A model generated the notes under the pieces. That model saw only the letters and a list, made by a program, of their open reading frames with translations. It was not told the DNA's origin and ran no database searches. Below, piece after piece: positions 5,864-32,800 of a stretch of 64,000 nt of DNA. The DNA is from Tieghemostelium lacteum. Taxonomy: Eukaryota > Evosea > Eumycetozoa > Dictyosteliales > Raperosteliaceae. A program made the position numbers and the translations under genes. Where the stretch lies: assembly GCA_001606155.1 (NCBI GenBank), contig LODT01000029.1, positions 248,001 to 312,000 on the forward strand. Reading direction: 5' to 3'. Each line of letters starts with the position of its first letter. Position 1 is the stretch's first letter.

Positions 5864-8800
5864 TTAAATTAAACCAAAATCTAAATCATATTTTGTTGGT
5901 GAATTATAGTTATCTGTAAATGTAAATTGTATAAATGTTTTACCATCAGCAGTAAGAGTTGCTGAGTTAAAGGTTAATGTAGATTGAATTTCATTTGGTT
6001 TTGGTATGATAGTTGGTATTACATTATCAATTAGGATTTTGTAGGTTTCATTTGGTGGTATATTAGTGAATTTATATAAACCATTTTGATCTGTAGTTGT
6101 TCTGGCAACTACTATGAATCTACTATTGACTAATGTTAAATTAACATTTGCTTTACCAGATTCAAATGGATCTCTGATACCATTTTGGTTGGTATCAATC
6201 CAAACCTGGTCACCAATTACAACAGATTTTGGAGTACATTGTGCAAGTAAGTCACCAAGACCACTTGATTTTCCAAATGTAACTTGGTTTGGTTGTGATA
6301 TGTTGGTTGTGTACATTACAAAACCAGTTCTTAAAGAACCATTCATATTGTTATAATATTTAATTGTACCTTCAAAGGCAAAATTGTAGTCATACGAATT
6401 TGAGATTACATCTGGGAATCCAGGAACTTGGTGAATTGCCCAACCGGCAGTTTCATCATGCCCAATAGCTCCAAGTTTAAAGTTATCATTATAGAATTCA
6501 CCTTTTCCAGGACCTTCTGTTTGTCCTCTAAATCCAGATGCTGATAAATGTGAACCAGTTAGAGAACCACATTTTCCATCTTTTTCTAATACAAGTTTAC
6601 CAGTACTGTTATCCATGCAAGCTCTTAATATATCACCAGCTGTTACAAATTGTGATTGGTCACCTTCTCTGTCTCTTATACCAATAATCAAATCAGTTCC
6701 ATCAAATGCCAAACTTGATACAATAGGTTGGGGAACTCCAATTTCATTAGCCCAAGCTCTCCAATTTGCAGATGGACACACACCAGCTTTATCAATATTC
6801 TTACAACCTCTGGTATAGTTCATTGGTATTGTAAGTACTTTTTGCAGTGTGGTATTTACTGGGTTAATAGCATCAACGGTGTAAACATAACCCATTAAAT
6901 CTTTGTTGGTTGGACCGGTACAAGTAGCACCTATATAATATTTACCAGATTTATAGGTTACTGCAAATGTGCTCCAATAGAATACATCTTTGTTGGCACA
7001 TTCACTTGGTATCTTTAGAGTACGAATATTTGAAGAATTTGCTGTTTGGTCTAATGGGATGAATACTACTTCGTCACGGTAAAGGTTAGCAGCTGCTAAA
7101 GTTCTTTGAACTGGATTCACATCAATATCACCAAATGACACACGATATACATGATCAAGACGATAATCATCAAGGGTTATTGGGATATCCATATCATCAA
7201 ATCCTGTATATCCTTCATAGAAAATTCTATTCAAATCTACAAATTGAGATAATTTACCTGATTGATCAAGTTTATAAATTACACCAGGACCATTAGGACC
7301 ATAGTCTGTACCAACTTTCATGAATGAACTCATGTACATATCTTGTTTTACTTTATCCCAACCTAGACCAAAAATGGAACCAACTTGTTTCTCAATTGCC
7401 AACATTTTAACATCTGAATGACTGGAGCTGTTGTATGGGTAACGTACTATAACTGGTTCATTTACATTAGATCCAGTTTGAGAATCACCAATTACATAGC
7501 AAGAAGTTGCAATCCATGGGTTATCATTACAAACCTCTTCATTGGTGATAAAGGAGAAATCATAACCAGAGGAAGATATAGATGGGATTACATTAATTTC
7601 CGTTGGTCTACATGGTTCAATTCTATCGCCTTGTCCAAATACCAAAGCTGGAGTTCCTACAACAACACTGTATCTTCCATCTTGAACTAGTCCCGAGAAT
7701 GTATAATTTCCATCAGATCCAGTTGTAGTTTGAGCAAGTGGTTTAGATATATTATTGTAGTACAAATAAACCGGGATTTTAGAGAGCGCCAAATCATTAG
7801 CAGTGCCTAGCCTAGAAGTACTATCAAATTTACCATTACAGTTCCAGTCTTTGAAGACTTTGCCTGATATTATGGCTGTACTTGGTCTAACTAAACCTAG
7901 TTTAATAACTGAACATTGATAGGATGCAAATGGACATTGAATATTTCTTGAATCTACACTATTCAAAGATATAACTGTTGTGGTATAATTTGATTGAAGA
8001 ATATTTCCACTTGGTGCATTATATTTAGTAGCTACCCATTCACCCGAGTATAATAATTGTAATGTGTAGTTTCCGAGTGAAATGTTTTCAAATTGGAATA
8101 CACCTGTGGAACTGATTACAGAACTGTTAATTATTGAGCCTTGACTATTAATTAAATTTACTTTGGCACCACTTGGATTATTTGATATTGGATTCTCTTC
8201 ATAAACACCATCACCTAGAATATCATTCCATAAATTACCATATATACCCATTGAGCTGTAATACAAGCCTGCATCAACTACTGGGTAATAATATAATGCT
8301 GTTATTGGTAGACCTGAAGGAGTTGGAATTGTTTTGGTAGAGTTCAATAGCAATGACAATACATCAGACTTTCCATTGGGATTGACTATGTTATCTGAGG
8401 TTGCAGATTTTGAACTAACTAACATACCGATGGGTATAGAGAACTGAACTATATATTGACCTTCTTTGATACCATCTATATAATAGTAACCTTGAGCATT
8501 GGAAACAGTTCTCTTTGGTTGATTTAGTGGATCAGGAACTATATTACTATTTATATCTAGTAGAGTTACAGTTACATTACTAAGACCTTTTTCTTCACCA
8601 TCCATAATTCCATTTTTATTTGAATCAACAAAGACACGATCACCAATAGCCATTAGAGGAGTTATAACACCAATGTTAATATTGGAGTATAGTCTACATT
8701 TTGCATTTGGATTTGCAGGATCTTTGATTACTAAACTATTGGGTAATGTGAAATTATCAGATCTTAGTGAATCTCTAATAACATTTACAACTGTTCCTGT

Positions 8801-11800
8801 ATTGGTATAAGGTGATATTACATCTCTATTGGAAAGCTGAACTTTTACATAATAGGTACCAGATGGCACTAATGGGATCTTGTATGCACCTATAGAATCA
8901 GTTTTTACAGGCTGAATAACAATACCGTAAAAATCTACAGCTATTTGGTTGGTGAATGCATTGTATAATGTCACCAAGATATCAGATTTTCCATGTTCAT
9001 TTGTATCATAGATACCATTTTGGTTGTCGTCAATCCAAGCCAATCTACCAATTTCAAAGCATGGTAAAACGATACCAGCATTATTGTTATTGGAAACGTA
9101 GTAATTCATTGTAGTATTGATTTTTGTATATAAACTCTGAGGTAACACAATCTTTCCATGTATATCTGCTCTAGATTCTTCAGTATTATTTGAGAATTTA
9201 GTACCTTGTGGATAACCAGTAATGTTTACATTTAGGAAATAGGTACTACCAGTAATATTTTTAAATTCATAGAATCCTTTACTGTCTACTTTTACTGAAG
9301 AGACTTCACGAGCATATGAATAGTTTCCTCTAAAGAGTGATACTACAGCATTGATAGCTGGCAATTCTGTGGAGGTGTTATACTTGGAGTTTTCATCAGT
9401 ATCTAACCATATCGTACCAGAGATATCTATGGTTCTGAGAATGAAACCAGCGTTTAGTAGTGGGTAGATGTAGAAACTATCAACACCATCGGAAGCTACA
9501 GTTGGACGGACACCTTGTGTCATGTAACTTAGGTTTTCACAATATAAGAAGGAGCCATTTATATTTGAAACTTTACCTTTTGGAGATGGAATTGTGTATT
9601 CATTTGGTGTTTGGAATTTGAAACAATATTTTCCTTGTGCTAAACCATCTAATTTCCAGTTACCATCTTTATCAGTATGAGTACTTTCAACGACTTGAGC
9701 ACCAATTAGAGCTGTAACAGTCACACCTTCATAATTTAATTCACCTGGATCTTGTTGGCCATTCTCATTGCTATCTATAAACACATGTTTACCAACTGCC
9801 AGTTTAGGTGGAACTACACCTATGTTAATTGTAGGATCAAATAGATCAGCAGAAACTCCTAAACTAGGATCTGGGATTATATTATTGGGATTAGTTATAT
9901 CAACTTTAGCAATTGCCCAACCAGATGAATTTGCCCTGTTTTCAGTTGAGAGTTGTGAGAATGTGGTACCAAATGGAGTATCAGCTTTTACATAATAGGT
10001 TCCAGGAGATAAATTGTCAAATGTATATATACCATTTTCATTGGTTTTAACATTAGATATAAATTTATAATTAGCATCATAAAGACTGACTGGTAGATTG
10101 AATAATGGCACTTCATTCGATTCAAAGGCACCATTTGCATTTATATCATTCCAAATAAATGTACCAACAGCAAAGGTAAATGGATGAATACCAAAATTAA
10201 TATTATAATTGTAATAGTCATCTGTGGAATCTGGAACTTCTTTAGGGAATTTAGTAACTTCAGTGTCATTCCAATATAAACGGAAACAATATGTTCTATT
10301 GGAACCTGCACGATTATAAGTTGTTTTGTTATAGTATGCTGGTGCCATATTCTGAGCAATTCCAGAATAGGTTGCACAATAGTTACCGGGTCTTACTAAT
10401 TTCAAATCCCAATTACCTTTGGAATCTGTTGTTGTACGCCAAGTTTGATTTGAATCCAAGCTATTTACCACAATCAAGATACCTGAAATACCATACTCAC
10501 CTGCAGACTTATTGTAAATTCCGTCATTATTCAAATCTGCATAAACTGTATCACCAATTCTAAATGTCTTTGGAGTTATACCAGCATTAATGAGCATATA
10601 TGCATATTTGGTATCTACATTATCTTCAGGTTTGGCTTCAAATACTGTCTTTCCAATTTGCAAATTAACAATATAATCACCATTACCATTAAATACTGAA
10701 AGAGTGGAGATATTGGATATCTTTAGACCGTAGGGTACTTTAATATGAGCTGTATAGAGTCCTGGAAGAACTTTAATGCTATAATCACCTAATGAATTGG
10801 TTACATTGGTATAGGTAGTAAAAGGAAGTGGATCTGTATTAACTAAATTTTTTCTATGTAACTTGAATTGATATTCACCTTTATATAGTGAAATTGTTAT
10901 ATTTGAAAGTGGAACATCTCCCATCTCAACCTCTAAATTACCATTACCATTTTGATCATAAAATATTATATGACCAACTGTAATATATGGAATAAGACCA
11001 AGATTAATATCATTTCTATCATCATTAATTTCTAGACAGTATTCAACAGTGTCAGGACTAGAAGTGGAGTTAAATGGTGATGTCTTAGTCAAGATATCAG
11101 CAGCATAGAGTTTAGTTGAGAAAACAGCTTGTACACAATAGTTTCCAGATACAACTTTGTTAAATGAATATTTTCCATTTTGGTCAGAGGTTACTTGTGA
11201 TATAAGAGTAGTTTTATCACTATTGTATAATTTCATTACAATATTAGAAATCATTGTATCATTGTCAGATCTACTTTGTAAATTATTCAAATCCAACCAT
11301 ACTTCCTTACCAATAGAATAGTAAGGTACCAAACCAACATTTGCAGAGTAATAGCTACTATTTGTTATAGTAACACAATATATACCAGAACTATTAAATA
11401 GTGAATGATCAGTTGGTTTTGAAACTTCATATTTGTCAGATGGGAAGACTACATGTATGCAATAGGCACCTGGATTAACTTTTGTAAATAGATATTGTCC
11501 ATTTTGATCAGAAGTAACAGTTTGTACAACTTTGTTTTCTGGATTAGACAGTAACTCAAATTTAATTCCTGGTAGTACAGACTCTGTAGCTTGTTTTAAA
11601 CTATCGTGGTTTTGATCAGTCCATATTTGGCTACTAATTTCTAATTCTCTTACAAAACCAGGATTTAGGTTACTAAATGTAGTAGGCTTAGTAGCACCAC
11701 CTATAAACATACATGATTTTGAATTACTGAATAATGAATCTGGACTATTTAAAACTGAGGAGTATCCAGATGGGGTAGTTGCTATTATACAATAGTAACC

Positions 11801-14800
11801 AGGTAATAAATCAGTAAATTGGTAGTGTCCAGCGGAGTCTGTTTGTACATTTCCTAATACTTTATCATTTCTAGTTAATTGAATTGATACATTAGGCATT
11901 TCTTCTCCAGATTGGAATTTTTGATCATTGTTCTTATCATCCCATGCATAGGAATATATTTTTGCTAGTGCAAAGTAACCTGCATTTATACCATAGTTGT
12001 CTTTATCTAAAGTGAAACAATAGGAACCATTTTTAAGAGCAATGGAGTCTAGAGATTGGTTTACTATTTGATAGCCATTCTTCATTTCAAATTGTACACA
12101 ATAGAAATCTGGCATCAGGTTAATAAATGAATAATCACCAGATACGCTTCCAGTAGATACAGTAGCTTGAGCATTGGTATTCATGTTCTTAAGAGTTACT
12201 TTAATGCCTTCAAATGCCTCATCACTTGCTGTAAATTGACCATCGTTATCTATATCAATAAAAGTGTCTCCTCCAATTTCATATAATGGGATAAAACCAA
12301 TATTGAGATTTGGTGTTGAATGATTACTATGTCTGAAACAGTATTGACCATTGGAATCAACAACTGAATCAGAACTTTTAACTACCAATTTGTACTTATT
12401 AGGGATGGAAACTTTAATACAATATTCACCTGGGTTATTATCTGAAAACTCAAATGGATTCTTATTTGATGTTTCAATAACCTTTCCTGTATTCTTGTCT
12501 ACCAACGTAACTGTAGTTATTATTTCTCCAAATGGTTCAGTATCAGGATCTCTTATACCATTATTGTTCTTATCTGACCAAATACTTCCTGATATTGAAG
12601 CTCTAGGAGTAAGACCAGCATTGATATCAGTTATTTCAAATGGTGATGCTGGATAGGTTATAGTGAGACAATATTCCCCTTGAGAATTGAATTTTGATTC
12701 ATTTCCAAATGTTGATAGTTTATATCCTAATAGAACTATAATCTTTATACAATAGTCACCTGGTATGATATTGGGAATTGAATAAATACCATTTTCACCA
12801 GAATTAATAATAATAGGTTGAGATGGATTTAATTTATCAATAAATTGAAGTACAACACCTGGTAGGCCATACTCTTTATCATCACCATCTTTTTGGAATA
12901 TAGAATCACCATTGGTATCAATCCAAACATTGGATTGATGAATAATGTATAATGGGACTAAACCTAGACCAATAGCATCGATATTTGACTTGAGTTCAAA
13001 GCAGAATTGAGCATATAATGGGTTATCAGATTGTCCAAATCCATTATCAGAATCTTTCTTTGGTGAAACTTTAAAAAATGATGGCAATTTTGTTTGGAGG
13101 CAATATCTTCCTGGTTTTAGTCCGTTGAATTTATATTTACCTTCAGAGTTGGTAATTTGAGTTCCAATAGTCACATTTTCATTAGATTCAATTTTAATTA
13201 GAGTAATAGGCACATCGGATCTTCCTACATCAGTTAGTGTGTCTCTAATACCATCTGCATTTATATCAACCCAAACTACATCAGATATTGAATATAAAGG
13301 AATATATCCAATGCTAATGAATGGATTTGATGCATTGGTTTTATGGAAGCAATATTGTCCATTAGAGTCAATTGCCGAATCTGATCCAATCAATATTTGA
13401 TAACCTGGTGGAGTATCAACTTTAATACAATAATCACCTGGTTGAACATTGGCAAACTCAAACGGATTATTATTTGTAATTTGAACTATGGAATTGTTAC
13501 TCATTGATATTAAAGAGATATTTGTTGTGATTTCTGTAAATGGTTCAGTATCAATATCTCGGATTCCATTTCCATTTTTATCTGACCATATACCACCTGA
13601 AATTGATGAAATAGGTGTGAAACCAATATTGATGTCTAATTGTTCAAATGGTGATGTTGGGTAGGTTAATGAGAGACAATATTGACCTTGAGAATTGAAT
13701 TTTGAGTGATTTCCAAATGGTGAAAGTTTATATCCTAATGGAACAATAACTTTGATACAATAATCACCTGGAATGACATTATAGATTGAATAAATACCAT
13801 TTTCACCAGAATTAATGATATCAGGTTGAGATGGATTTGATTTATCAATAAATTGCAATTCTACACCTGGTAAACCATATTCTCTCTCATTTCCATCTGT
13901 TTGGAATTTAGAATCACCATTGGTATCAATCCAAACTTTGGAACCAAGAGAATATAATGGAACAAGTCCAATATCAATATCATGATTGTTTTCATTTAGA
14001 TTGAGACAATATTCAGTTGTTGATTTTACCCCAAAGGATTCTAAATTATTTAACTCAAAGATAGATGAACTTGATTTTTCAGTAACTGCAAAATGGTCTG
14101 GAATTTGAACACTAAGACAATATTTACCAGGTCTTAGATTATTAAAGGAGTATTTACCTTGTGAGTCAGAAGTTGTACTTCCAATAGTTTGGTTTCCATT
14201 GGAATTGACTTTTACAATATTCAATAATATTCCAGATTTTCCAATATCACTAGTTGGATTTCTTATACCATCATCATTAATATCTACCCAAACCTGGTCA
14301 CCGATAGAATAGAGTGGAACTAGACCAATGTTTAGATTATTGGTGTGTGAACTAGATGTTGAGAAACAGTATCTACCATTAGAATCAGCAACAGAATCAG
14401 ATCCAGTAGCTACTAATTGATATCCAGAGGGTACTGTAATATGAATACAATAATTACCTGGAGGCATTAAATCAAATTTAAATGGGTTTGCAGTGGTACC
14501 TTTAATTGGAAGACTAGTACTTGGATTTAACAGATCAACTTGTGCCCTAATTTCACCAAATGGTTCAGTTTCAGGATCTCTAATTCCATTGTCATTCTTA
14601 TCCAACCAAATACCACCAGATATATCATTCAATGGTATAAATCCTACGTTTATCTTGTAATTTGTGAAAGATGAAGGATAGGATATAGTGAAGCAATTTT
14701 CATTATTTGAATCAAACACAGAGTCATTGGCTTTTGGTGAAATTTTATAACCTATAGGAGTTGTCACAAGTATACAATAGTCTCCTGGAATCAAACCATC

Positions 14801-17800
14801 AAATGAATATTCGCCATTAGAATTCGAATATACTACTTTAGTATTACCAGCATTGTTTTTATCAATGAGTTTGAATTCCACATTGGATAACATAGGTTCT
14901 TGTTTTTCATCACCGTTTATAGAAGAATCACCATTTTTATCAATCCATGCAAATTTACCAACTGAATATTGTGGAATTAAACCAGCATCCGCATTATGAA
15001 TAGTATTTAACAATTGTAAACAATATTCATTTGATGAGAAGACTGAATATCTAGTAGTTTTGGTTAAAATGAAGTGATCTGGAATTTGAAGTGTCAAACA
15101 ATAGTTGCCGGGCCTTAGGCTATCAAATATATAATTTCCTTGTGAATCCGTTTGAATTGATCCAAGATTGGATTTGGAACCATCTGAATTTACTTTGGTT
15201 AATGAAATGGGTATATTGGATTTTCCAATATCAGATGATTGATCTTTGATTCCATTTGCATTGATATCAACCCAGACCTGATCTCCAAGTGAATATAATG
15301 GTATAAATCCAATATTGAGATTTGTTGTTGATGAATTGGATTTATGGAAACAATATTGACCATTGATCTCGACAACTGAATCTGATCCGAATGAAACAAG
15401 GGTGTAACCAAGTGGAACTGTGGTTTTAATACAATAATCACCTGGTTGAATATAGATAAATTCAAATGGATTCTTGTTTTCAGAAATATCAATAATTTTA
15501 CTGCTATTCTTATCAATGAGAGTAATGATTGGTGCTATTCCATCAAATTCTTCATTTTCATCTTTGAATCCATTATTATTCTTATCTGACCAAATTTTAC
15601 CTGAAATTGATGAAATAGGTGTGAAACCAACATCAATATCCAATTGTTCAAATGGTGATGTTGGGTAGGTTAATGAGAGACAATATTGACCTTGAGAATT
15701 GAATTTTGAGTGATTTCCAAATGGTGAAAGTTTATATCCTAATGGAACAATAACTTTGATACAATAATCACCTGGAATGACATTATAGATTGAATAAATA
15801 CCATTTTCACCAGAATTAATGATATCAGGTTGAGATGGATTAGAATTATCAATAAATTGCAATTCGACACCTGGTAAACCATATTCTCTGTCGTTTCCAT
15901 CTCTTTGAAGTTTAGAATCACCATTGGTATCAATCCAGACCTTTGAGCCCAGAGAATATAATGGAACAAGTCCTATGTCTATATCAAAATTATTGTAATA
16001 CAGATTAAGACAATATTCAGTTGTTGATTTGACATCAAAGAATTCTGAATCATTTAATTCAAAGATAGATGAACTTGATTTCTCAGTGACAGCAAAATGT
16101 TCTGGGATTTGAATAAATATACAATATCTTGCTGGTTCTAGATTATCAAATCTGTATTTACCCAGAGTATTAGAAACCTTACTTTCAATAGTAGAATTTC
16201 CATTGTTTCCAATTTTAATAAGAGTAATTGGTACACCTGATTTACCCATATCTGTTATTGGATCTCTAATACCATCAGCATTGATATCAACCCAAACTTG
16301 ATCACCAATAGAATAGAGTGGTATAAATCCTATATCTAGATTTGAAACTGAAGCATTGGTTTTGTGGAAACAATATTGACCATTAGAGTCAAGAACTGAT
16401 TTTGGATTTAATATATATCCTGGTGGAATAGTAACTTTAATACAATAATCACCTGGTTGAATGTTTACAAATTCAAATGGATTCTTATTTTCTGAGATTT
16501 CAATGATTTTACTTGTATTTTGTTCTGATAGAGTTATTGTAGTTGACATTCCTTCAAATGGCTCAGTATCAGGATCTCTTTTTCCATTTCCATTATTATC
16601 AGACCATATTCCACCATATATTGATGATATTGGAGTTAGACCTGCATTGATGTCTACTTTTTCAAATGGTGATGTTGGGTAGGTTAGAGTAAGACAGTAT
16701 TCATTTTGTGAATTGAATTTAGAGTCATTTCCTTGTGGTGACAATTTATAACCAGGTGGTATAATAATTCTAATACAATAGGAACCTGGAATAATGTGTA
16801 TAATCGAATATATACCATTTTCACCAGAGTTGATAATACTAGGTTGAGATGGATTTGATTTATCAATAAACTGAAGTTCAACACCTGGTAGACCATATTC
16901 TTTGTCTTTACCATCTTTTTGGTATTTAGAATCGCCATTGGTATCAATCCATATGGTTGAGCCACGTGAGTATAATGGAACAATTCCTAGATCAACATCT
17001 GGGTTATCAGCATTTAAATATAGACAAAATTCAGTACTTGGCTCAATATTAAAGAGTTCAAATTCTCTTAATTCAAATACATTTGAATTTGAATTACTTG
17101 TAACTGCAAAGTTATAAGGTATATCAACTTGGAGACAGTATCTACCTGGTCTGAGTTTGGAGTATCCATATTTACCCTGAGAATCTGTTACCTTATTACC
17201 AATAGTTACATTTCCATTAGAAGTTATTTTAACAAGTTTCAATGATATACCAGCTTTTCCTGGATCACCTGGGTTTCTAATACCGTCAGCATTCAAATCT
17301 ACCCAAACTAAGTCACCCAATGAGTAAAGAGGTACAAAACCAATATTTAGGTTTTGAATTGATTTAGTACCTAACGAGAAACAATATCTACCATTGGAAT
17401 TGACTACAGAGTCAGGTCCTGTTACTACAAATACATATCCATTTGGAGCATTAATTTGAATACAATAATTACCTGGAGGCATATTATCGAATTGATAAGG
17501 ATTGGCAGTGGTACCTTTAATTGGAAGACCAGTATTTTTATTCAATAGATCAATTTGTACTTGAATTTCACCAAATGGTTCTGTAGCAGGGTCTCTAACA
17601 CCATTGTCATTTTTATCTAACCAAATACCACCTGATATCATATTATGAGGGATAAAACCTGCATTGACATTATTAAAAATAAATGGTGATGAAGGATACT
17701 TTAATGTGAAGCAATAGTCTCCAACAGAATTGAAAACAGAGTCACTTATCATTGGTGATAGGGAATATCCTGATGGAGTATTAACATGTATACAATAGTC

Positions 17801-20800
17801 TCCTGGAATCAAACCATCAAATAAAAATGCACCTTTTTCATCAGTAATCTTGCTTCGAACATTAGAAGAATTCTTTGAATCATAGAGTTTAAATTCAATA
17901 TTTGGGAAAAAGTATTCTTGATTGTCACCTTGGTTTATAACTGAATCTCCATTAGTATCAATCCAAGCTAGATTTCCCACTGAATATTGTGGAATTAAAC
18001 CAAAACCTGCTTTAGTAACTGTATTTTCAAGTTGTAGACAATATTCATTTGATGGGAAGACAGAGTCACTTGATACTTTGGTTAAAATGAAATGTTCTGG
18101 TACATTTACTTTCAAACAATAGTTTCCAAATTTAAGGTTATCAAATTGGTATCTACCTTGTGAATCAGTTTGAACTGTACCTATATTTGATATGGAACCA
18201 TTTGAATTTAGTTTTACCAATGAAATGGGTATATTGGATTTTCCAATATCAGATGATTGATCTTTGATTCCATTTGCATTGATATCAACCCAGACCTGAT
18301 CTCCAAGTGAATATAATGGTATAAATCCAATATTGAGATTTGTTGTTGATGAATTGGATTTATGGAAACAATATTGACCATTGAAATCGACAACTGAATC
18401 TGATCCGAATGAAACAAGGGTGTAACCAAGTGGAACTGTGGTTTTAATACAATAATCACCTGGTTGAATATAAATGAATTCAAATGGATTCTTGTTTTCA
18501 GAAATATCAATAATTTTACTGCTATTCTTATCAATGAGAGTAATGATTGGTGCTATTCCATCAAATTCTTCGTTTTCATCTTTGAATCCATTATTATTCT
18601 TATCTGACCAAATTTTACCTGAAATTGATGACATTGGAGTGAAACCAACATCAATATCTAATTGTTCAAATGGTGATGTTGGATAGGTCAAAGTTAAACA
18701 ATATTGACCTTGAGAATTGAATTTTGAGTGATTTCCAAATGGTGAAAGTTTATATCCTAATGGAACAATAACTTTGATACAATAATCACCTGGAATGACA
18801 TTATAGATTGAATAAATACCATTTTCACCAGAATTAATGATATCAGGTTGAGATGGATTTGATTTATCAATAAATTGCAATTCGACACCTGGTAAACCAT
18901 ATTCTCTCTCATTTCCATCTGGTTGGAATTTAGAATCACCATTGGTATCAATCCAAACTTTGGAACCAAGAGAATATAATGGAACAAGTCCAAGATCAAT
19001 ATCAGGGTTATTTTCCCTTAGATTGAGACAATATTCAGTTGTTGATTTGACATCAAAGAATTCTGAATCATTTAATTCAAAGATGGATGAACTTGATTTT
19101 TGGGTTACTGCAAAATGTTCTGGTATATCAACACTGAGACAATATCTTCCTGGTGGTAGTCTTTGGAATCTATAACGACCCAAGGAATCTGTAGTTTTGC
19201 TTCCAAGACTTGTGTTTTGACTGGAGCCAATCTTAGTGAGTGATAGAGTAACATTAGAAATACCAATATCAGTATCATTATTTCTGATACCATCAGCATT
19301 GATATCAACCCAAACCTTATTTCCTAGGAAATATAGAGGTATTATACCAATATTTAAATTAGTTATGGATTCATTTGATTTATGGAAACAATATCTACCA
19401 GAGAAATCAACTACAGAGTCTTTAGAAGTTACAAATTTATAGAATTCAGATGGGATAGTTACACTAATACAGTATTCATTTGGAAATAGTTCCTTGAATT
19501 CAAATGGATTTTTAGAAGTTGTTTCAATAACTATACCTGTTTCTCTATCTATTAAAGATACATTTGCATAAATTTCACCAAAGGGTTCTTCATCAGGTAC
19601 CCTTACTCCATCACCATTTTTATCAAGCCATAATCCACCAGATATTGATGAAATTGGAATGAGACCTGCATCAATTTGTAGAATATCGAATGAAGTGTTT
19701 GGATAATCAATTGTGAAACAATATTCACCATTTTCATCAAATTTAGTATCATTTCTAGATGGTGATAATTTATAACCTATTGGTACTACGATTTTAATAC
19801 AATTTTGACCATTTACAAGAGAAATGAATTGTGATAATCCAAAATCACCAGTTTTAGTAGAACGGTTGGTATCAAAACCATTTTTAACAATAAACTGTAT
19901 TTCAACACCTGGTAGACCATATTCTTGTTCTATAGAACCATCCGATTCTTTTTGGAAAATAGAATCACCATTGGTATCAATCCAAACTCTAGAACCAATG
20001 GTATAGATAGGTGACAATCCAAGATCGGCATTTGATGTATTTTGATACAAATCGAAGCAGTATTCAGCAATTGAAGAGTTATCAAGCTTAGGTGAGAATA
20101 CATTATCAGATCCTTTTCCAGGAGTAACTAGGAAATGTTGTGGAAGTATTGCTTCTATACAATATCTACCAGGTTTAATATTTTGGAATTGATAGATACC
20201 ATTGACATCAGTAACTTGTGTATCAATAGTTGAATTATTTTTGGTATCAATAATGGATATTGATACATCTGATTTTCCTAAAAATACACCATAATTACCA
20301 TCAGCATTGAAATCAACCCAAACAAGATCACCAACTGTATATAATGGAATTAAACCAATATATAGATTGGAGATTGAAACATTGGTTAGAGCAAAGCAAT
20401 ATTGGCCATTAGAATCTACTACAGAATCAGCACCAGTTGCAACTAGAATTTTACCTGATGGAACCTCAACCCTAATACAATAGTCTCCAGGAGGAAGAAG
20501 TTTAAACTCAAATGGCATGTTGATTGTGCTATCAAGCTCCTCACCATTTTTGGTTAAATGAACAGTTGCTGAAACCTCACCAATTGGTTCAGTATCAGGA
20601 TCTCTTTTTCCATTATTGTTCTTGTCTAACCATACACCACCAGAAATATCATTATTTGGAATGAAACCAGCATTGATGTTTTGAATTTCAAATGGAGATG
20701 TTGGATATGATATATTGAGACAATATTCACCGTCGCTATTAAAGACAGAGTCTTTACCACTTGGAGATAGTCTGTAACCTGCTGGTGTTACAACTCTAAT

Positions 20801-23800
20801 ACAATATTTATCAGGAAGTAAACCTTCAAATAAATATTGACCTTTGATATCAGTTGTAACATTTGACTGATGATTTCCAATGAGAATGAACTCAACACCA
20901 GGCATAATAACCTCAGATTCAACATTATAAAATGAATCACCATTATTATCAATCCATGAAAATTTACCAATGGAATAAAGTGGTAAAATACCAAGATTAG
21001 CATTGGTCACGTTTTGGGTTAAGAATAAGCAATGTTGGGTAACTGAATCATTAAGTTGGAATACAGAATCACTGGAAGTTTTAGTTGGAACAAAGTTTGG
21101 TGGAATAGTTGCTATTATACAATAGTTAGCTGGTAAGAGGTTACCAAATTGATAATGACCCATTGCATCACTAGCTACATTGCCAAGAGTTTCTGAAGTT
21201 CCATTTGAGTAATATAGAACTAGGTTCATCATTACATCTGATTTTGGAATTTCATGAGAACTATTTCTTAAACCTTGTCCATTGATATCAACCCATACAT
21301 AACTTCCTAAAGAGTACAATGGAATGAATCCAATATTGAGATTAGGTGTTGATGAATTGGTTTTGTGGAAACAATATTGTCCATTCGAATCAAAAACAAG
21401 TACAGGAGATAGGATATATCCAGATGGAATATCAACTTTTACACAATAATCACCTGGTTGAACATTATGGAATTCAAATGGATTCTTATTTTCTGAGACT
21501 TCAATTACATTATTTGTATCTTTGTCAATCAAGGTTACTTTAGTTGATATACCTTCAAATGGTTCAGTATCAGGGTCTCTTACACCATTATTGTTCTTAT
21601 CAGACCAAATTCCACCTGAAACTGCTGAGGTAGGTATTAAACCTGCATTTATATCTAATTGTTCAAATAGTGCCTCGGGATTATTCAAATAGTCAATAGT
21701 GAAACAAAATTCACCATTGGAATCGAATTTAGAATCACCTCTTTGTGGTGACAGTTTATATCCTAAAGGTACTACTACCTTTATACAATTCTGTCCATTT
21801 ACAATGCTAGTGAATTGGTAAAAACCTTCTTTTCCAGTAGTTATTGAACGGTTGGAATCAAATCCAAATTTTGCAATAAACTGTATTTCAATATCTGGAA
21901 GTCCATATTCTTTTTCTTTTGAACCTTGGGTTTCTTTTTGGAATATTGAATCACCATTAGTATCAATCCAAACTCTAGAACCAAATACATAGATTGGTGA
22001 TAACCCAAGTCCATAGGTACTATTGGAATTGAGGTCAAAGCAATAGTCAGCAATTAAAGAGTTATCATGTTGAGGAGAGAACACATTATCAGACCCTTTT
22101 CCAGGTGTAACTTGGAAATGTTGTGGAAGTTCAGCTTGTAGACAATATCTTCCTGGTTTTAGATTTTGGAATTGAACTTTACCCTTGTTATCAGATAATT
22201 GATTTCCAATAGTATCATTAGTGTCACCAATTTTAATAAGATGTATAGGTACATTAGATTTTCCTGTATCAATTCCACGATTACCATCGGCATTCAAATC
22301 CACCCAAACAAAACTATTAAGTGAATAGAGTGGAATAAATCCAATATTGAGATTTGGAGTTGATGAATTGGATTTATGGAAGCAGAAATGTCCATTTGAA
22401 TCAGCTACCAAATCAGACCCACTTGTTATTAGTTCATAACCTGATGGTACTTCAACTGTTAGGCAATAGTCACCTGGTTGAATATTAGGGAATTCAAATG
22501 GATTCTCATTAGCAGTTTCAATAACTTTACTAGTATTTTTATCAATGAGTGATATAGGTGTTGATAATTCTCCGAATGGTTCAGTATCAGGATCTCTTAT
22601 ACCATTATTGTTCTTATCAGACCAAATTCCACCGGATATTGATGATATAGGAGTTAGACCTGCATTGATATCTAATTGTTCAAATGGTGTTGTTGGGTAA
22701 GTCAAAGTTAGACAATAGTTACCTTGAGAATTGAATTTTGATTCGTTTCCAAATGGTGAAAGTTTGTATCCACTTGGTACCATAATTTTAATGCAATATT
22801 CACCAGGCATAATATCGATAATTGAATATATACCATTTTCACCAGTTTCTACAGACATTGGATTATTTGGATAAGAATTATCAATAAATTGTAAATCTAC
22901 ACCTGGTAAACCATACTCCTTATTATTTCCATCTTTTTGAAGAATAGAGTCACCATTGATATCAATCCATATTTGAGAACCTAGAGAATATACAGGTACT
23001 AATCCTAAATTAATAGAACTATTACTTGAATTCAAATCTAAACATATCTCAACAGCTCTATCGTTGGAAATTAAGTCCGCGGAAGTACTATTGAAAACCG
23101 ATTGATCACTGATTGGTGTTGTTATATAGTGTAGTGGTACCTGTACCTGAATGCAATATCTTCCAGGTCTTAATTTAGTAAACACATATTTACCATGAGA
23201 ATCTGTTATAGTAGTTCCTACTGTTGAATTACCATCACCATTAATCTTTGTAAGAGTTAAAGAGATTTCAGATTTTCCAATATCAGAATTAGCATCAATT
23301 TTACCATCTCCATGAATATCAACCCAAACTAAATCACCAAGTGTGTATAATGGTACTAAACCAATATTTAGATTCTCTAGTGAATTGTCTAGTAAATTAA
23401 AACAGTGATTACTATTATCATTAAGCACTGAATCAATACCTTCTTTAACATAAATATAATTGGATTTGATGGAGTCTGGTATAGTTAATTGAATGCAATA
23501 GTCACCAGGTGGCAAAGTTCCATATCTAAAGGAACCATCAGTACCGATATTAGATGAATGTAAAAGTTTACCATCATTAGACAGAAGTGATATTGATAAT
23601 GGTAATTCAGGTATACCATATGACTCAGAACCAGTATCTCTAATTCCATTATCATTCTTATCTATCCATAATTTACCAGATGCCTCATTTTTAGGGATAA
23701 ATCCAGCATTTAGATTATTAAAAGTAAATGAAGATAATGGATATTTTAATGTGAAACAATATTCACCATCACTGTTGAAAACAGATTCCTTTATCATTGG

Positions 23801-26800
23801 AGAAATTTTGTAACCTGCTGGAATGACAATATGAATACAATAGTCACCTGGAATCAATCCAACAAATGAATATTCTCCATTGTCATTAGTTTTGGTATCC
23901 CTGTTATATTTTCCATCATCTTTATCAATTAGTTTGAATACAATATTTGGGAATACATTATCGCCTTCATTTTTAATTGAATCAAAATTGTTGTCCATCC
24001 ATGCTAGTTTTCCAACTGAATATAATGGTACCAAACCAACATTAGTATCATTGGAGGTGCTAACTAGTTGTAAACAATATTCATTTGATGAGAAGACTGA
24101 ATATCTTGAAACCTTTGTAATTTTGAAATGTTCTGGTATTTGGATACTCAAACAATAGTTTCCAGGTTTCAGTTTATCAAATTGATATTTTCCTTGTGAA
24201 TCAGTTAATACTGAGAAATTATTTTGAGAACCATCAGAATTTTTCTGTACTAATGAAACAGGTACACTGGATAATCCAATATCATTTGTTTGATCTATAA
24301 TACCATCAGCATTGATATCAACCCAAATTAAACTACCAAGTGAATATAATGGAATGAATTCAATGTCAATGTAAGGAACTGAAGAATTTGATTTATGGAA
24401 ACAATATTGTCCTTTGGAATCAAAGATAGATTCAGGTGCAATAATATATCCTGATGGGATTTCAACATTGATACAATAATCACCTGGTTGGACATTGGGG
24501 AATTCAAATGGATTATTGGTTGTTGATTCAACTATTTTACCAGAATTCTTATCAGTTAATGTGATATTGGTTGGAATTTGATTGTATGGTTCAGTTTCAG
24601 GGTCTCTGATTCCATTTCCATTCTTATCTGACCAAATTCCACCAGAAAGTGAAGAAATGGGAGTGAGACCAACATTGATATCTAATTGTTCAAATGGTGA
24701 TGTTGGATAAATGATATCGAGACAATATTCACCTTGAGAATTGAATTTTGATTCATTTCCAAATGGTGAAATTTTGTACCCAAGTGGTAAAATAACTTTG
24801 ATACAATAGGATCCTGGAACAATGGTATCAAATGAATAGATTCCATTTTCACCACTACTGATGATTTCAGGATGGCTTGATGAATCCTTTGATTTATCAA
24901 TCAGCTGTAATTCAACATTTGGTAAACCATATTCATTATCATTTCCATCTTTTTGGAATTTAGAATCACCATTGTTATCAATCCATACTTTAGATCCAAG
25001 TGTGTAAATTGGAACTAATCCTAAATTAACATTATTATTGTTTGAGATGAGATTTAAACAATATTGTGGTATTGATTCATCAAGATTATATAATTGATAA
25101 TCCATAATACTAAGGATAGCAGTACTATGTTTATCAGTAACAACAAAATGTTTTGGAATTTCAATTTCTAGACAATATTTGCCAGGTTTTAGATTATCAA
25201 AGATATAACTACCATTTACATTGCTTAATTGATTTGCAATGGTTGAATTTGATGTTGAATCAACTTTAATGAGAGAAATTGAAACACCACTGAGACCAAC
25301 ATCAGTTGAAAGATTTCTTTTTCCATCAGCATTGATATCAACCCAAATCATTTCACCAATTGAATATAATGGAATGAATCCAATTTCAAAGTTTGGATTT
25401 GATGAATTTGATTTATGAAAACAATATTGCCCATTGGAATCAAAGATAGATTCAGGTGCAATAATATATCCTGATGGAATATCAACATTGACACAATAAT
25501 CACCTGGTTGGACATTGGAGAATTCAAATGGATTCTTTTTAGTGGTTTCTATGACTTTCCCGGAATTCTTATCAGTTAGAGTAATGTTTGCTGGTATTCC
25601 TTCAAATGGTTCAGTTTCAGGGTCTCTGATTCCATTTCCATTCTTATCTGACCAAATACTTCCTGTAATTGGAGAAATTGGTATTAAACCAATATTGATG
25701 TCTAATATTTCAAATGGTGATGTTGGATATAAGATATTGAAACAATATTCACCTTGAGAATTGAATTTTGATTCATTTCCAAATGGTGAAACTTTGTATC
25801 CAAGTGGTAAAATAACTTTGATACAATAGGATCCTGGAATAATGTTATCAAATGAATAGATTCCATTTTCACCACTACTCATTTTATCAGGATGAGTTGA
25901 TGGATCTTTTGATTTATCATTGAGTTGTAATTCAACATTTGGCAAACCATATTCTTTATCATTTTCATCTTTTTGGAATTTAGAATCACCATTGGTATCA
26001 ATCCATACTTTAGATCCAAGTGTGTAAATTGGAATTAGGCCTAAATTAACATTTTTGTTGGAATTTAGATTTAAACAAAATTGTGATATTGATTCATCTA
26101 GACTATTTAATTCATAGTTATTTATACTAAGGATAGAGGTCCTATATTTTCTAGAAAGAATTGGAATTTTAACTACAGTAAAGTGTTTAGGAATTTCAAT
26201 TTCTAGACAATATTTACCAGGTTTTAGTTTATCAAAGATATAACTACCTTTGGCATCAGTTAATTGATTTGCAATTGTTGAGTTTGATATTGAATCAACT
26301 TTAATGAGAGTAACTGAAACACCACTGAGACCAACATCAGTTGAAAGATTTCTCTTTCCATCAGCATTGATATCAACCCAAATCATTTCACCAATTGAAT
26401 ATAATGGAATGAATCCAATTTCAAAGTTTGGATTTGATGAATTTGATTTGTGGAAACAATATTGTCCATTAGAATCGAATAATGATCCAGGTGCAATAAT
26501 ATATCCAGATGGAATATCAACTTTTACACAATAATCACCTGGTTGGACATTGGAGAATTCAAATGGATTCTTTTTGGTGGTTTCAATGACTTTTCCGGAA
26601 TTCTTATCAGTGAGAGTAATGTTTGTTGGTATTCCTTCAAATGGTTCAGTTTCAGGATCTCTGACTCCATTTCCATTTTTATCAGACCATATTCCTCCTG
26701 AAATTGGTGATACTGGAATAAGACCTACATTAATATCTAATATTTCAAATGGTGATTTTAGATAGATAAAATCAAGACAATATTCTGCGTCTAAATTGAA

Positions 26801-29800
26801 CTTTGATTCGTTTCCCAAAGGTGAAAGTTTGTATCCATTTGGTACAATAACTTTAATACAATAGGATCCTGGTATAATGTTGTCAAATATATAGAGTCCA
26901 TTTTCACCTGAATTGATAATTTCAGGATGGCTGTGAATCTCATTTGTAAGGTCAAAAATTTGTAGTTCAACATTTGGTAGACCATATTCTTTGTCCTTAC
27001 CATCATGTTGGAATATAGAATCACCATTGGTATCAATCCACACTTTAGATCCGAGGGTGTAAATTGGAACTAGACCAAAGTTTACATTAGTGTTGTTGGT
27101 TATAAGATTTATACAGTACTGTGATAGTGACTCTTGAATTATATAAAATTGGTATTGATTCAATGAATTAAAAATAGATGATCCATTTTTACCACTGACG
27201 ACAAAATGTTTTGGAATGTCAATTTCTAGACAATATTTGCCAGGTTTAAGATTTTCGAAATTAAAAATACCATTGAAATCAGATGTTTTAGTGGAAATTG
27301 TTGAGTTTGATGATAAATCTACTCGAATTAAAGTTATAGGAACACCACTAAGACCAATATCTCTGGTTGGATCTCTAATACCATCGGCATTGATATCAAC
27401 CCAGATCATTTCACCAATTGAATATAAAGGAATTAATCCTATATCAAGGTTTGGTCTTGATGAATTTGATTTATGGAAACAATATTGTCCTTTGGAATCA
27501 AAGATAGATTCAGGTGCAATAATATATCCTGATGGGATTTCAACATTGATACAATAATCACCTGGTTGGACATTGGGGAATTCAAATGGATTATTGGTTG
27601 TTGATTCAACTATTTTACCAGTATTCTTATCAGTTAATGTGATATTGGTTGGAATTTGGTTATATGGTTCAGTTTCAGGGTCTCTGATTCCATTTCCATT
27701 CTTATCTGACCAAATTCCACCAGAAAGTGAAGAAATGGGAGTGAGACCAACATTGATATCTAATTGTTCAAAAGGTGATGTTGGATAAATGATATCGAGA
27801 CAATATTCACCTTGAGAATTGAATTTTGATTCATTTCCAAATGATGAAACTTTGTATCCAAGTGGTACAATAACTTGGATACAATAGGATCCTGGAATAA
27901 TGGTATCAAATGAATAGATTCCATTTTCACCACTACTGATGATTTCAGGATGGCTTGATGAATCTTTTGATTTATCAATGAGTTGTAATTCAACATTTGG
28001 TAAACCATATTCATTATCATTTCCATCTTGTTGGAATTTAGAATCACCATTGTTATCAATCCACACTTTAGATCCAAGTGTGTAAATTGGAACTAATCCT
28101 AAATTAACATTATTATTGTTTGAGATGAGATTTAAACAATATTGTGGAATTGATTCATCAAGATTATATAATTGATAATCCATAATACTAAGGATAGCAG
28201 TACTATGTTTATCAGTAACAACAAAATGTTTTGGAATTTCAATTTCTAGACAATATTTGCCAGGTTTTAGATTATCAAAGATATAACTACCATTTACATT
28301 GCTTAATTGATTTGCAATGGTTGAATTTGATGTTGAATCAACTTTAATGAGAGAAATTGAAACACCACTGAGACCAACATCAGTTGAAAGATTTCTTTTT
28401 CCATCAGCATTGATATCAACCCAAATCATTTCACCAATTGAATATAATGGAATGAATCCAATTTCAAAGTTTGGATTTGATGAATTTGATTTGTGAAAAC
28501 AATATTGCCCATTGGAATCAAGGATAGTTTCAGGTGCGATAATATATCCTGATGGAATATCAACTTTTACACAATAATCACCTGGTTGGACATTGGAGAA
28601 TTCAAATGGATTTTTGTTGGTGGTTTCAATGATTGTACCGGAATTCTTATCAGTTAATGTGATATTTGTTGGTATTCCTTCAAATGGTTCAGTTTCAGGA
28701 TCTCTGATTCCATTTCCATTTTTATCTGACCAAATACCACCTGTAATGGATGAAACGGGAATAAGGCCTACATTGATGTCTAATATTTCAAATGGTGATG
28801 TTGGATAGATGATATCGAGACAGTATTCGCCTTGGGAGTTGAATTTTGATTCATTTCCAAATGGTGAGAGTTTGTAACCTAATGGAACTACAATCTTGAA
28901 ACAATAGTCACCAAGTAAAATATTTTTAATTGAATAAACTCCTTGTTCACCAGATTGGTATTTTTCAGTAGTAGTTGGACTCAATTTGTTATAAAATTGT
29001 AATTCAACACCAGGTAAACCATATTCTTTATCATTACCATCTTGTTGGAATTTGGAATCTCCATTGGTATCAATCCAGACTTTTGTACTTATAGAGTAAA
29101 TTGGGATCATTCCAATATTTAGAATATAGTTACGATATAAATCTAAGCAGATGTGTTCATCGTTAGAGTTTAAACTATCGATCAATTTAAAGTGATTAGA
29201 TATTTTTGAGACTACACAATATTTCGAAGGATGGAGTTTTGAGAATTCAATTTTACCATCATTGTCAGTGGAAAGAGATGAGATGAGTTCATTATTGGAG
29301 TCTTTAGTGAGATTAACTGGTAGCTGAGGGAAACCAATATCTACAGATTGGTCATATATACTATTATTATTAACATCAACCCAAACAAAAGTAATCAAGT
29401 GATATAAAGGAACTAGACCAAATGATAGGTTTGGTATATTATTTGGATCAGAAATAGTAAAACAATAGTGACCAGTTGCATTTAGGATAGAGTCAGGTCC
29501 TACAGGTACAACAGAATAGTTTTCAGGAATTTGTACATTAAGACAATAATCACCAACAGGAAAGTTTTTAAATGAAAATGGAATGCTGTCACTAACGGGA
29601 TGGATAATAACAGAGGCATTATTACTATTGGTCAAGGTTATGTTAGATAATAATTTATTTGGCTGTGTATCTGTTGGATCTTTCACACCATTACCATTGT
29701 TATCAATCCATATGTGACCTCTAGTATCAACAGTTGGAATGAACCCTACATTAGATTCCCTAGTTTCACTTTGGAATTTAGAATATTCAATAGTGAAACA

Positions 29801-32800
29801 ATCATAACCAGTGGCATTGAATTTAGAATCTGCTGATTTTGGACTGATGTTATAACCCTTTGGTATATTGATAATGTGTATACAATAGTCACCTGGAATC
29901 ATGTCAGTGAATTCATAAGTTCCATTTTCATTGGTTTCTGTAATGAGAATTTCATTGATTGCCAACTCAATAAGTTCCAATTTGATTTTAGGTAGAACTG
30001 ATTCAGTTTTGTTGTCATATATAGAGTCGAAATTAATGTCAATCCATGATACACCCTTAACTGAATACAATGGAATTAAACCAAGATCTACCTTGTTACT
30101 GTTAGATACAAGGTTCATACAATATTCTGGAAGATCTACAAAAGGTTCAAAAACAGAATCTGGGAAATATTGTCTCTTATTGGTTGTAATAAAGTGTGCA
30201 GGGATTGTAGGTTTAACACAATAGTATCCTGGCTTCAGTTCAACAAATTGATAGAAACCAGTGTCATCAGTTACAGTGTCACCTAGATGAGTATAGTTTT
30301 CACCTTTGAATAATGAAATGGATACATTACCCATACCAACATCGGTAATTGGGTCTCTAGCACCATCAGCATTTACATCAATCCATACCTGGTCACCAAA
30401 GTAATACAGAGGGATGATACCGATATTCAAGTTGGCTACTGAGAGATTAGTTTTATCAAAACAAAATTTACCATCACTGTTTACAACTGAGTCAATACCT
30501 GGTTTAACTAGAGTAAAGTTTTTGGGAGATACAATGGATATACAATATTTTCCAGGAATAATGTTTTCAAAAGTGAATGGATTGGTAGATAGAATTATTG
30601 AGTTGTTTTTAGAATCAGTGAGAATTACAGGAGTTATAACTTCACCAAAATGTTCAGTTTCAGGATCTAGATATCCATTATCATTTTTATCAATCCAGAT
30701 ACCACCAGAAATGGAGTTTACAGGAATTAAACCAACATAGATATTTTGTAAATGTACTGGAGATGAAGGATAACTTATTGTAAAGCAATAATGTCCAGTT
30801 GAATTGAAAACTGATTGATTGGTTTGTGGTGACAATTTGAATCCAGCAGGTACAACAACATGTAGACAATAGTTACCAGGCAGCAAATTAAATATTTGGA
30901 ATTTACCATCATTATCTGTTGATATAAAACCGCTGACATTGTAACTTTCAGCAGAGAATAGTATGGAGACATTTGGAAATGTAACTTCATTTTTATTCAA
31001 TATACTATCATTGTTTGCATCAACCCAAGAAAATCCAGACAATTCATAACTTGGTGACAGACCTAAATCCATATTAGTTACGTTGCTAGCTAATGTGAAA
31101 CAATATTCAGTCTTATGATGACGATCTAAAGACTCGAATATATTGTCATCTGAATCTTCCACAAGTACCAAATCTATAGGTACTTTTGCCCTTAAGCAGT
31201 AATCTCCTCCTTTAATATCCTGGAATTGGTATTGACCTTGTGCATTGGTTTTTGTAGTTTTTGGATGTCCAGGATCCAAAGCATTAATTAAGGTGATATC
31301 AAAGTTCTCTAATGGTTTATCAGCACTATCAAATACTTTATTTCCATTGATATCAACCCAAACTTTATCGCCTATTGAATATAATGGAATAAGACCTAAA
31401 TTGAAATTGTTTTGTACTAGTGGTGTATCAAATGAATTTAGTGTAAAACAGTATTGACCTTGATCATTAAATGGGGAATCTGAGGATTTCTCTACAATGA
31501 TATAGTTTGGAGGTACCAATACCGTTATGCAGTATTTTCCAGGTTGAATTTGGTTAAAGTGATATAGCCCATTTTCATCCGATTGAGTAGTGCCAATTGG
31601 TTTATTAGCCTTTTTGTCAATGAGTGTTAGTGTAATATTAGGTATACCTTGATTTTCAGATGCATCTCTAATTGAATTTGAATTCTTATCTATCCAGATC
31701 AATTGTCCTACACTAAAGAGAGTAGGAATGAAACCTTGATCAATGGATGGATTGTAAAAATCTGAAATTAACCCAGATTCTATGGTATTCCTATTGGTTA
31801 CACTCTGGTCGAGTTGGAAACAATATACACCTGATTTGTCATTAGCTACAGAGGTGCTATTAGATTGAACCTGAGGAGATACAGAATAGTTATAACCAGC
31901 AATTGGTGATATGAAATGAATGCAATAGTATCCAAAAGCAAGGTTACTGAATGAATAGTGACCTTTTTGATCAGATGTAGTTGTTGAAGTTAAATTACTT
32001 AGAATTGAGATATTCTTTTGTAAAGATTCATCAGAAGGTACTGATGATGAAGTTAGACCTACAAAGAATAAGTCAATTTGTACATTAGCAAAAGGAGGTT
32101 CACCACGATCATATACACCATTATGATTACTATCAATCCAAATTTGATCACCAATAGCAAATACCATATCATAAATACCAGCGGAGATGTTCATTAGAGA
32201 TGTTCCATCCACCAATACACTATTATTTGCAAATAGTTGAAGACCATTTACAAATCCATTTTCAGGATTTACTCTAGAATCTTGAGTTTGTTCAGAAAGA
32301 TGATAGTTATTAGGTGTTGTAATTCTAACTGAATATTCACCACCACTAAGGAATTCAAAGTCATATGAACCCTCTTTACTTGAAGTGGTACTCTTCACTA
32401 GAATATCATAACTATTCCATAACTCAATATTTACATTTTCAAATGGTTCTTCACCTTGCTGTTTAATTGAATCTCTATTTCGGTCAAACCATACTAGACC
32501 GTGAATTGAGAATTGTAGTTTCTGCATACCTACATTAAATGTCAAATGTGAGGTATCTTCAGGTACCTGAAGTTTAATCTCACCACGACTGTCAGCTTGA
32601 GAGTCTGGGCCATGTGTATACTGGTATCCAGTTGGTAAATGGAAGATTAGAATATATTGTCCAGGTGGTATATCAGTGAATTCATATGATCCATTGATAT
32701 TACTTTTAAGAGTTTTCAATATCTCATTGCTGTCATGGTGACGGATATCAACAGATATGTCTTTAAGATATCCTTCAGAATCACTGTGTACACCATCACC

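Follow-up and report, generated by a model that had tools for sequence, protein, structure and literature searches.

A probable intradomain disulfide between strands E and F in 65 of the 76 SdrD_B domains of a colossin-like giant protein from Tieghemostelium lacteum

Introduction

The B domains of the SdrD_B/MSCRAMM type (PF17210; SdrD B1-B2, PDB 10ps and 4jdz; UafA, 3irp) are the best matches, in sequence as well as in fold, of a giant protein of Tieghemostelium lacteum which, from its family and architecture, we take to be a colossin. Its gene lies on the minus strand of a 64,000-nucleotide stretch of DNA (GenBank assembly GCA_001606155.1, contig LODT01000029.1, positions 248,001 to 312,000), here called the window, and the subject of this work is a pair of cysteines that recurs in 65 of its 76 SdrD_B domains. 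A report of 2018 describes the staphylococcal B domains as having the highest mechanical strength of any fold measured, a strength that calcium tunes; in them Ca3 ties the N-terminal strand to the C-terminal one, as the isopeptide bond does in a related fold (PMC6232131). A survey includes a single SdrD_B case for which an isopeptide is predicted and presents disulfides as common in isopeptide-domain families and related surface domains (PMC12617251). Disulfides such as the one proposed here for colossin are known from families of isopeptide domains and from pilins (SpaA, FimP, CLIPPER), but the excerpts of that literature describe no E-F pair that recurs along a giant array in a eukaryote.

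Colossin A is apparently a structural protein of the slug, fashioned from bacterial Cna_B domain repeats into a giant array like that of the window protein (PMC3188802), and the colossin family is expanded in Acytostelium (PMC4334915). The available portions of the colossin literature, these two papers included, contain no discussion of cysteines that was found, and those on SdrD B repeats, on CnaB disulfides and isopeptides and on Dictyostelium Cna B gave no description of a pair linking strands E and F.

The colossin domains have the core calcium loop D-x-N-x-D/N in common with the SdrD_B/MSCRAMM domains and differ from them in outer calcium ligands that appear eroded, as well as in the cysteine pair, which the staphylococcal B domains in the alignments examined do not possess. 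The kinship with CnaB is weak at the level of profiles (of 73 colossin domains, 47 matched the SpaA profile and one matched Cna_B). With the CnaB isopeptide domains colossin would share the covalent stabilisation of a surface repeat, but it lacks the lysine of strand A, and its link joins strands E and F and not the first and last strands.

The cysteine pair across the array

The protein is encoded by a single open reading frame (ORF) of 9,386 codons at 5864..34024 of the minus strand, in which a hidden Markov model (HMM) built from the protein itself recognises 76 SdrD_B domains, in agreement with the count given in an earlier note on this DNA. The PF17210 SdrD_B profile was matched by all 73 scanned domains (E <= 0.01, best 1.2e-20), domains 74-76 lying outside this Pfam-scanned alignment and being matched by the protein's own HMM; a match to the family is absent from all other stretches of at least 40 open codons in the window.

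Tabulation of every cysteine places the pair in domains 4-66, 68 and 70, that is, in 65 of 76 domains, and no domain holds only one member of it, both as the earlier note had claimed. Each paired domain contains exactly two cysteines, the first following PGxY and the second situated in the xYC strand further on; the remaining 11 domains (1-3, 67, 69 and 71-76) have no cysteine at either position. The 63 consecutive paired domains 4-66 occupy 10970..32146 (minus strand, as are all features below) and are preceded by the unpaired domains 1-3 (32147..33193). Towards the C-terminus, paired and unpaired domains alternate: domain 67 (10550..10969) is without the pair, domain 68 (10160..10549) has it, domain 69 (9788..10159) is again without it and domain 70 (9416..9787) has it, followed by the unpaired domains 71-75 (7535..9415, the end of domain 75 being placed by hand) and 76 (5867..6208). 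The interval 10990-32170 first given for the pair therefore covers domains 4-66, but domains 68 and 70 fall below it. Similarly, two cysteines at other places are confirmed in each of domains 74 and 75, and domains 71 and 72 also have one each outside the pair positions (residues 8322 and 8443). Of the 151 cysteines of the protein, 130 belong to the 65 pairs, six to the N-terminal region and nine to the non-repeat region before the last domain. A disulfide-free zone at both ends, as formerly supposed, is thus only partly right: the C-terminal zone is mixed, given the pairs in domains 68 and 70, and the non-repeat ends hold these six and nine other cysteines.

The conservation of the two cysteines exceeds what chance would give. 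Among columns with less than 20% gaps, only both cysteines and one aspartate are invariant in the paired domains (65 of 65, the next best column reaching 64 of 65), at a mean pairwise identity of 34%. Both cysteine codons are used at the two positions (TGT/TGC, 56/9 and 54/11), and the spacing between the cysteines varies from 23 to 44 residues, with a median of 27 and a total of 1,883 residues over the 65 domains.

Placement of the cysteines in the domain fold

Domain 43 (18617..18961) was modelled with AlphaFold2 from the 73-row alignment, giving a predicted local distance difference test (pLDDT) of 95.1 and a predicted template modelling score (pTM) of 0.85. Its first cysteine, C66 of the model (Cys 5082 of the protein, codon 18779-18781), lies within the strand formed by residues 63-69, which is strand E, and its second, C93 (Cys 5109, codon 18698-18700), lies within that of residues 91-96, which is strand F. 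A Foldseek search with this model returned SdrD structures including B domains as the best PDB matches (10ps, E 2.2e-07, template modelling score 0.80 by query). A three-domain model is less certain (pLDDT 83.6, pTM 0.67, the other four models ranging from 61 to 68), and in it all three pairs are found at equal offsets, the first cysteine being the fourth residue of a seven-residue strand and the second the third of a six-residue strand. Moreover, the residues at -1 and +1 are hydrophobic in 97 and 98% of the domains for the first cysteine and in 92 and 98% for the second, and cysteines flanked in this way should both face outward.

Whether such positions are neighbours in the family can be read from domains that have no cysteine at all. 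Mean-field coevolution was computed on 763 Cys-free prokaryotic domains, with no sequence from the window and with rows having 30% gaps or more dropped, and recovers the strand pairings of the fold, with constant sums of column numbers for B-E (79, 81), B-C (56) and E-F (142, then 143 and 141). The first colossin cysteine corresponds to column 54, and the second, by eye, to column 88 in all three profile-profile alignments, one of which was made against the Cys-free domains. Among 5,356 pairs of columns, 54-88 ranks 44 (Z 3.6) and the pair on the next rung, 52-90, ranks 68, while 54-90 ranks 2,434. Taken as (54,88), the two cysteines are cross-strand neighbours, a placement that rests on the second being column 88.

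Cysteine pairs in prokaryotic SdrD_B domains

The comparison with bacterial SdrD_B domains that the earlier note had recommended did reveal cysteine pairs at the same place. The prokaryotic sample comprises 230 loci and 1,257 unique domains, identical sequences being counted once, of which 959 are complete over strands B to F and were counted. The loci were picked by match score, some overlap or belong to the same genome (L010/L114, L014/L085), and the searches in Bacteroidota and Planctomycetota used the colossin profile and so lean towards colossin-like domains; the counts are accordingly not frequencies in nature. A cysteine at column 27, in the B-C turn, is present in 88 of the 959 domains and one at column 88, in strand F, in 90, with both in 88 domains from 32 loci, which are not 32 independent genomes; a cut at 943 domains gives 87 with both, none with column 27 alone and two with column 88 alone. 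The two domains that have column 88 without column 27 carry instead a cysteine in strand E, at column 54 in L132 and, by eye, at about column 52 in L123. L132 is therefore a bacterial domain with the exact colossin pair (54,88), one of 959. In addition, a single Arsenicibacter genome (L010/L114) contributes four domains with the pair (52,90), which again sums to 142 and lies on the next rung; about five of the 959 domains are paired at that rung. As read by eye, loci of the Campylobacteraceae and those retrieved in the Planctomycetota and Chloroflexota searches combine a cysteine at column 54 with one inserted in the B-C turn, and the cysteine at column 52 of L020 stands outside the pairing count because the match ends before strand F. 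Prokaryotic pairs near this place indicate that this face of the sheet bears paired cysteines more than once within the family, the version used by colossin being a rare one.

The (27,88) subtype deserves mention in its own right. It is found in bacteria and archaea (L002, L014/L085, L017, L018, L041, L045, L053, L061, L075, L076 and others), is all-or-none in complete domains except for the two with another partner, and involves positions that coevolution places two strands apart. A search for solved structures related to domains of this subtype matched 14 distinct sequences, which are staphylococcal and CnaB-type chains and human NOMO2.

Calcium ligands and isopeptide residues

The core calcium loop D-x-N-x-[DN]-[GSKQ] is present in 70 of the 76 domains, and in 61 of the 65 paired ones; the cysteine pair has therefore been added to the loop and does not replace it, and the idea that the one stands in for the other was rejected. 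The outer ligands, in contrast, appear eroded in colossin as a whole, to judge from the residues at the corresponding columns (rows with 20 or more gaps were dropped from the counts by column). An acid stands at column 11 in 34 of 64 paired and seven of 11 unpaired colossin domains; for column 14 the corresponding figures are 49 of 65 and ten of 11. Column 10, taken for the glutamine of a bridge, is no longer mainly glutamine. The C-terminal ligand of Ca3 was assigned from the only aspartate in that strand of SdrD B1. At the equivalent place of the last strand, two residues before the final glycine, the paired domains have asparagine in 40 and an acid in 18 of 65 cases, and an acid is present in one of the eight unpaired domains that were counted, against 677 of 726 at column 101 in Cys-free prokaryotic domains; an acidic last-strand ligand is consequently not the rule in colossin. 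Furthermore, the acids of the E-F loop are found in none of 53 alignable paired domains at column 73 and in two of 15 at column 77, versus 337 of 721 and 515 of 701 Cys-free prokaryotic domains, these columns being mostly gaps in colossin, whose segments between the two cysteines carry on average 2.8 acidic residues. With 11 unpaired domains, of which eight entered the last-strand count, a link between the loss of calcium ligands and the cysteine pair was not demonstrated. As regards the isopeptide, the lysine of strand A, in the column taken for it, occurs in none of the 65 paired, 11 unpaired and 718 Cys-free prokaryotic domains.

Duplication history of the array

A tree was built from the 76 domains and 34 prokaryotic ones with the cysteine columns removed; for the latter, rows with 15 or more gaps were dropped and sequences below 50% identity were picked, beginning with a few that were of interest and filling up by random choice. 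It is poorly resolved, only ten of 106 inner branches being well supported, and the state "paired" changes eight times on the best tree, two of these changes being forced by well-supported branches. Clustering the 65 paired domains at 70% identity gives 47 groups, and at 50% it gives 27. The array grew by duplication, as the tree reads largely of three-domain units: domains 7-62 (12269-31033) consist mostly of such units, every third domain grouping together, and near-identical copies occur, e.g., 44/53 and 15/24. The ratio of nonsynonymous to synonymous substitution rates between similar copies is 0.135 to 0.37 in eight of nine comparisons, the ninth having no amino-acid change. Because the tree shows few changes of state, treating the 65 domains as 65 independent observations was rejected.

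An intradomain disulfide and its alternatives

The best explanation, and in our judgement a probable one, is that in 65 of the 76 domains the two cysteines stand opposite each other, facing outward, on two neighbouring antiparallel strands (E and F) of one beta-sandwich, and are linked within that domain by a cross-strand disulfide. The earlier note had already proposed a bond within the domain, and this is upheld by the invariance of both cysteine columns, the location on strands E and F, the outward orientation, the coevolution of the two positions, the prokaryotic pairs, the occurrence of domains 68 and 70 amid unpaired neighbours, and the signal-peptide-like N-terminus and 161 N-x-S/T sites of the protein. 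The data show the pair itself, its position on the two strands, its conservation and the proximity of the two columns in the fold of the family; that the disulfide forms is inferred from them and very probable, whereas the role given below, that of a stabilising staple and not of a load-bearing clamp, is held with somewhat less assurance but still favoured.

Several observations weigh against this interpretation. The pair 52-88 ranks 45 in the coevolution analysis, directly beside 54-88, and the E-F peak shifts to 143 and to 141 in two larger sets (one cysteine allowed; all domains), which means that the register of the two strands is known only to within one or two residues. The family HMM, moreover, spreads the second cysteine over column 88 in 25 domains, 90 in eight, 85 in four and 86 in one, the rest falling in insertions, and if its place were column 90 the support from coevolution would be lost. 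In the prokaryotic sample, 85 of the 959 domains have a single cysteine, and of the 115 that contain two, 36 carry them elsewhere than at (27,88), so that pairing is no rule for every cysteine of the family; the commonest pair (27,88) itself spans two strands, and its contact is weakly supported (rank 407 in the Cys-free set). Finally, an array grown by duplication with few changes of state represents few independent events, and co-occurrence within this protein alone is then weak evidence of coupling; the strict conservation of the cysteines is stronger evidence for a function.

The outward orientation of the cysteines on the sheet would also suit a pairing between domains or between chains, knitting the array into a longer or cross-linked fibre, and so would the nature of the protein, which has a hydrophobic N-terminus resembling, by eye, a signal peptide and is probably secreted, colossin A being apparently a structural slug protein (PMC3188802). 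However, domains 68 and 70 keep both cysteines while 67, 69 and 71 are without the pair, which argues against interdomain pairing, every paired domain has exactly two cysteines, the two positions neighbour each other inside the domain by coevolution, and the same pair is seen in a bacterial domain, all of which make such a fibre quite improbable. Still more improbable is that the cysteines stay as free thiols, or serve as a metal or redox site, with no structural disulfide. Outward cysteines in a probably secreted protein and the availability of only two ligands per domain speak against this, as does the finding that the strand-F cysteine of prokaryotic domains varies in its partner (27, 52 or 54) but always has one in the complete domains examined, which is expected of a bond rather than of a site.

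It could also be supposed that the disulfide replaces the mechanical lock of bacterial domains, either the Lys-Asn isopeptide or Ca3, and the earlier note had indeed assigned it the same purpose. The absence of the strand-A lysine from all 76 domains, the scarcity of acids in the last strand and at columns 73 and 77, and the loss of glutamine from column 10 are in line with this idea. Its geometry is not, as the pair ties strand E to strand F and not the first strand to the last, and the core calcium loop has not been lost; since no such lysine stands in the Cys-free prokaryotic domains either, its absence says little; the unpaired domains in which acids were counted (last strand, columns 11 and 14) are too few to show a link with the pair; and in colossin gaps fill most of the E-F loop columns, in a segment that has acids of its own. 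The claim of a common purpose is therefore not supported, and a replacement of the lock is regarded as unlikely.

The intradomain E-F disulfide would form after secretion, and its most likely effect would be to pin the long and variable E-F loop to the sheet. The pinned loop would stabilise each domain against heat, proteolysis and loss of calcium, but the staple would not be a clamp that carries load from the first strand to the last. Lying off these strands, it would leave a domain that is pulled open free to lengthen, except for the 23-44 residues that the bond encloses out of the roughly 100-150 of the domain.

Other features of the reading frame and of related arrays

Colossin A of Dictyostelium discoideum has a length of about 11,100 amino acids. 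In the window ORF, the N-terminal region (residues 1-277, 33194..34024), which holds six cysteines, gave no Pfam match. Between domains 75 and 76 lies the non-repeat region of approximately 440 residues with nine cysteines (residues 8831-9272, 6209..7534), and residues 8793-9272, which cover it, have no Pfam match even at E 0.1. N-x-S/T sites number 161 in the whole protein (5867-34024), 35 of them between the two cysteines of paired domains.

An initial scan of genomes with the colossin domains as queries yielded no relative, and neither did a viral scan. Giant arrays exist among the prokaryotic loci: on a plasmid of Spirosoma oryzicola (L001), a 33-kb gene (14231-47284) of approximately 11,000 codons, annotated as an SdrD B-like protein, is similar in size to colossin and has no cysteine pair in the half examined, and L130 (G021) and L131 (G042) contain SdrD_B-like matches in open frames that are 10,542 and 10,586 codons long.

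Significance

A further, rather doubtful possibility is that the host lineage turned an acquired bacterial SdrD_B domain from a calcium-gated into a partly redox-gated fold, the last-strand ligand and the alignable E-F loop acids having been eroded throughout the array and the E-F disulfide having been fixed in 65 domains. If this were true, both how the giant protein folds and how stiff it is would be governed by oxidation during its passage through the secretory path in addition to calcium outside. More generally, colossin-like proteins represent a natural array of the staphylococcal B-domain fold, to which a covalent staple has probably been added off the main load path. Furthermore, the strand-F position with its alternative partners, in the B-C turn and on two rungs of strand E, may offer a natural series relating the place of a disulfide to the mechanics of the domain.

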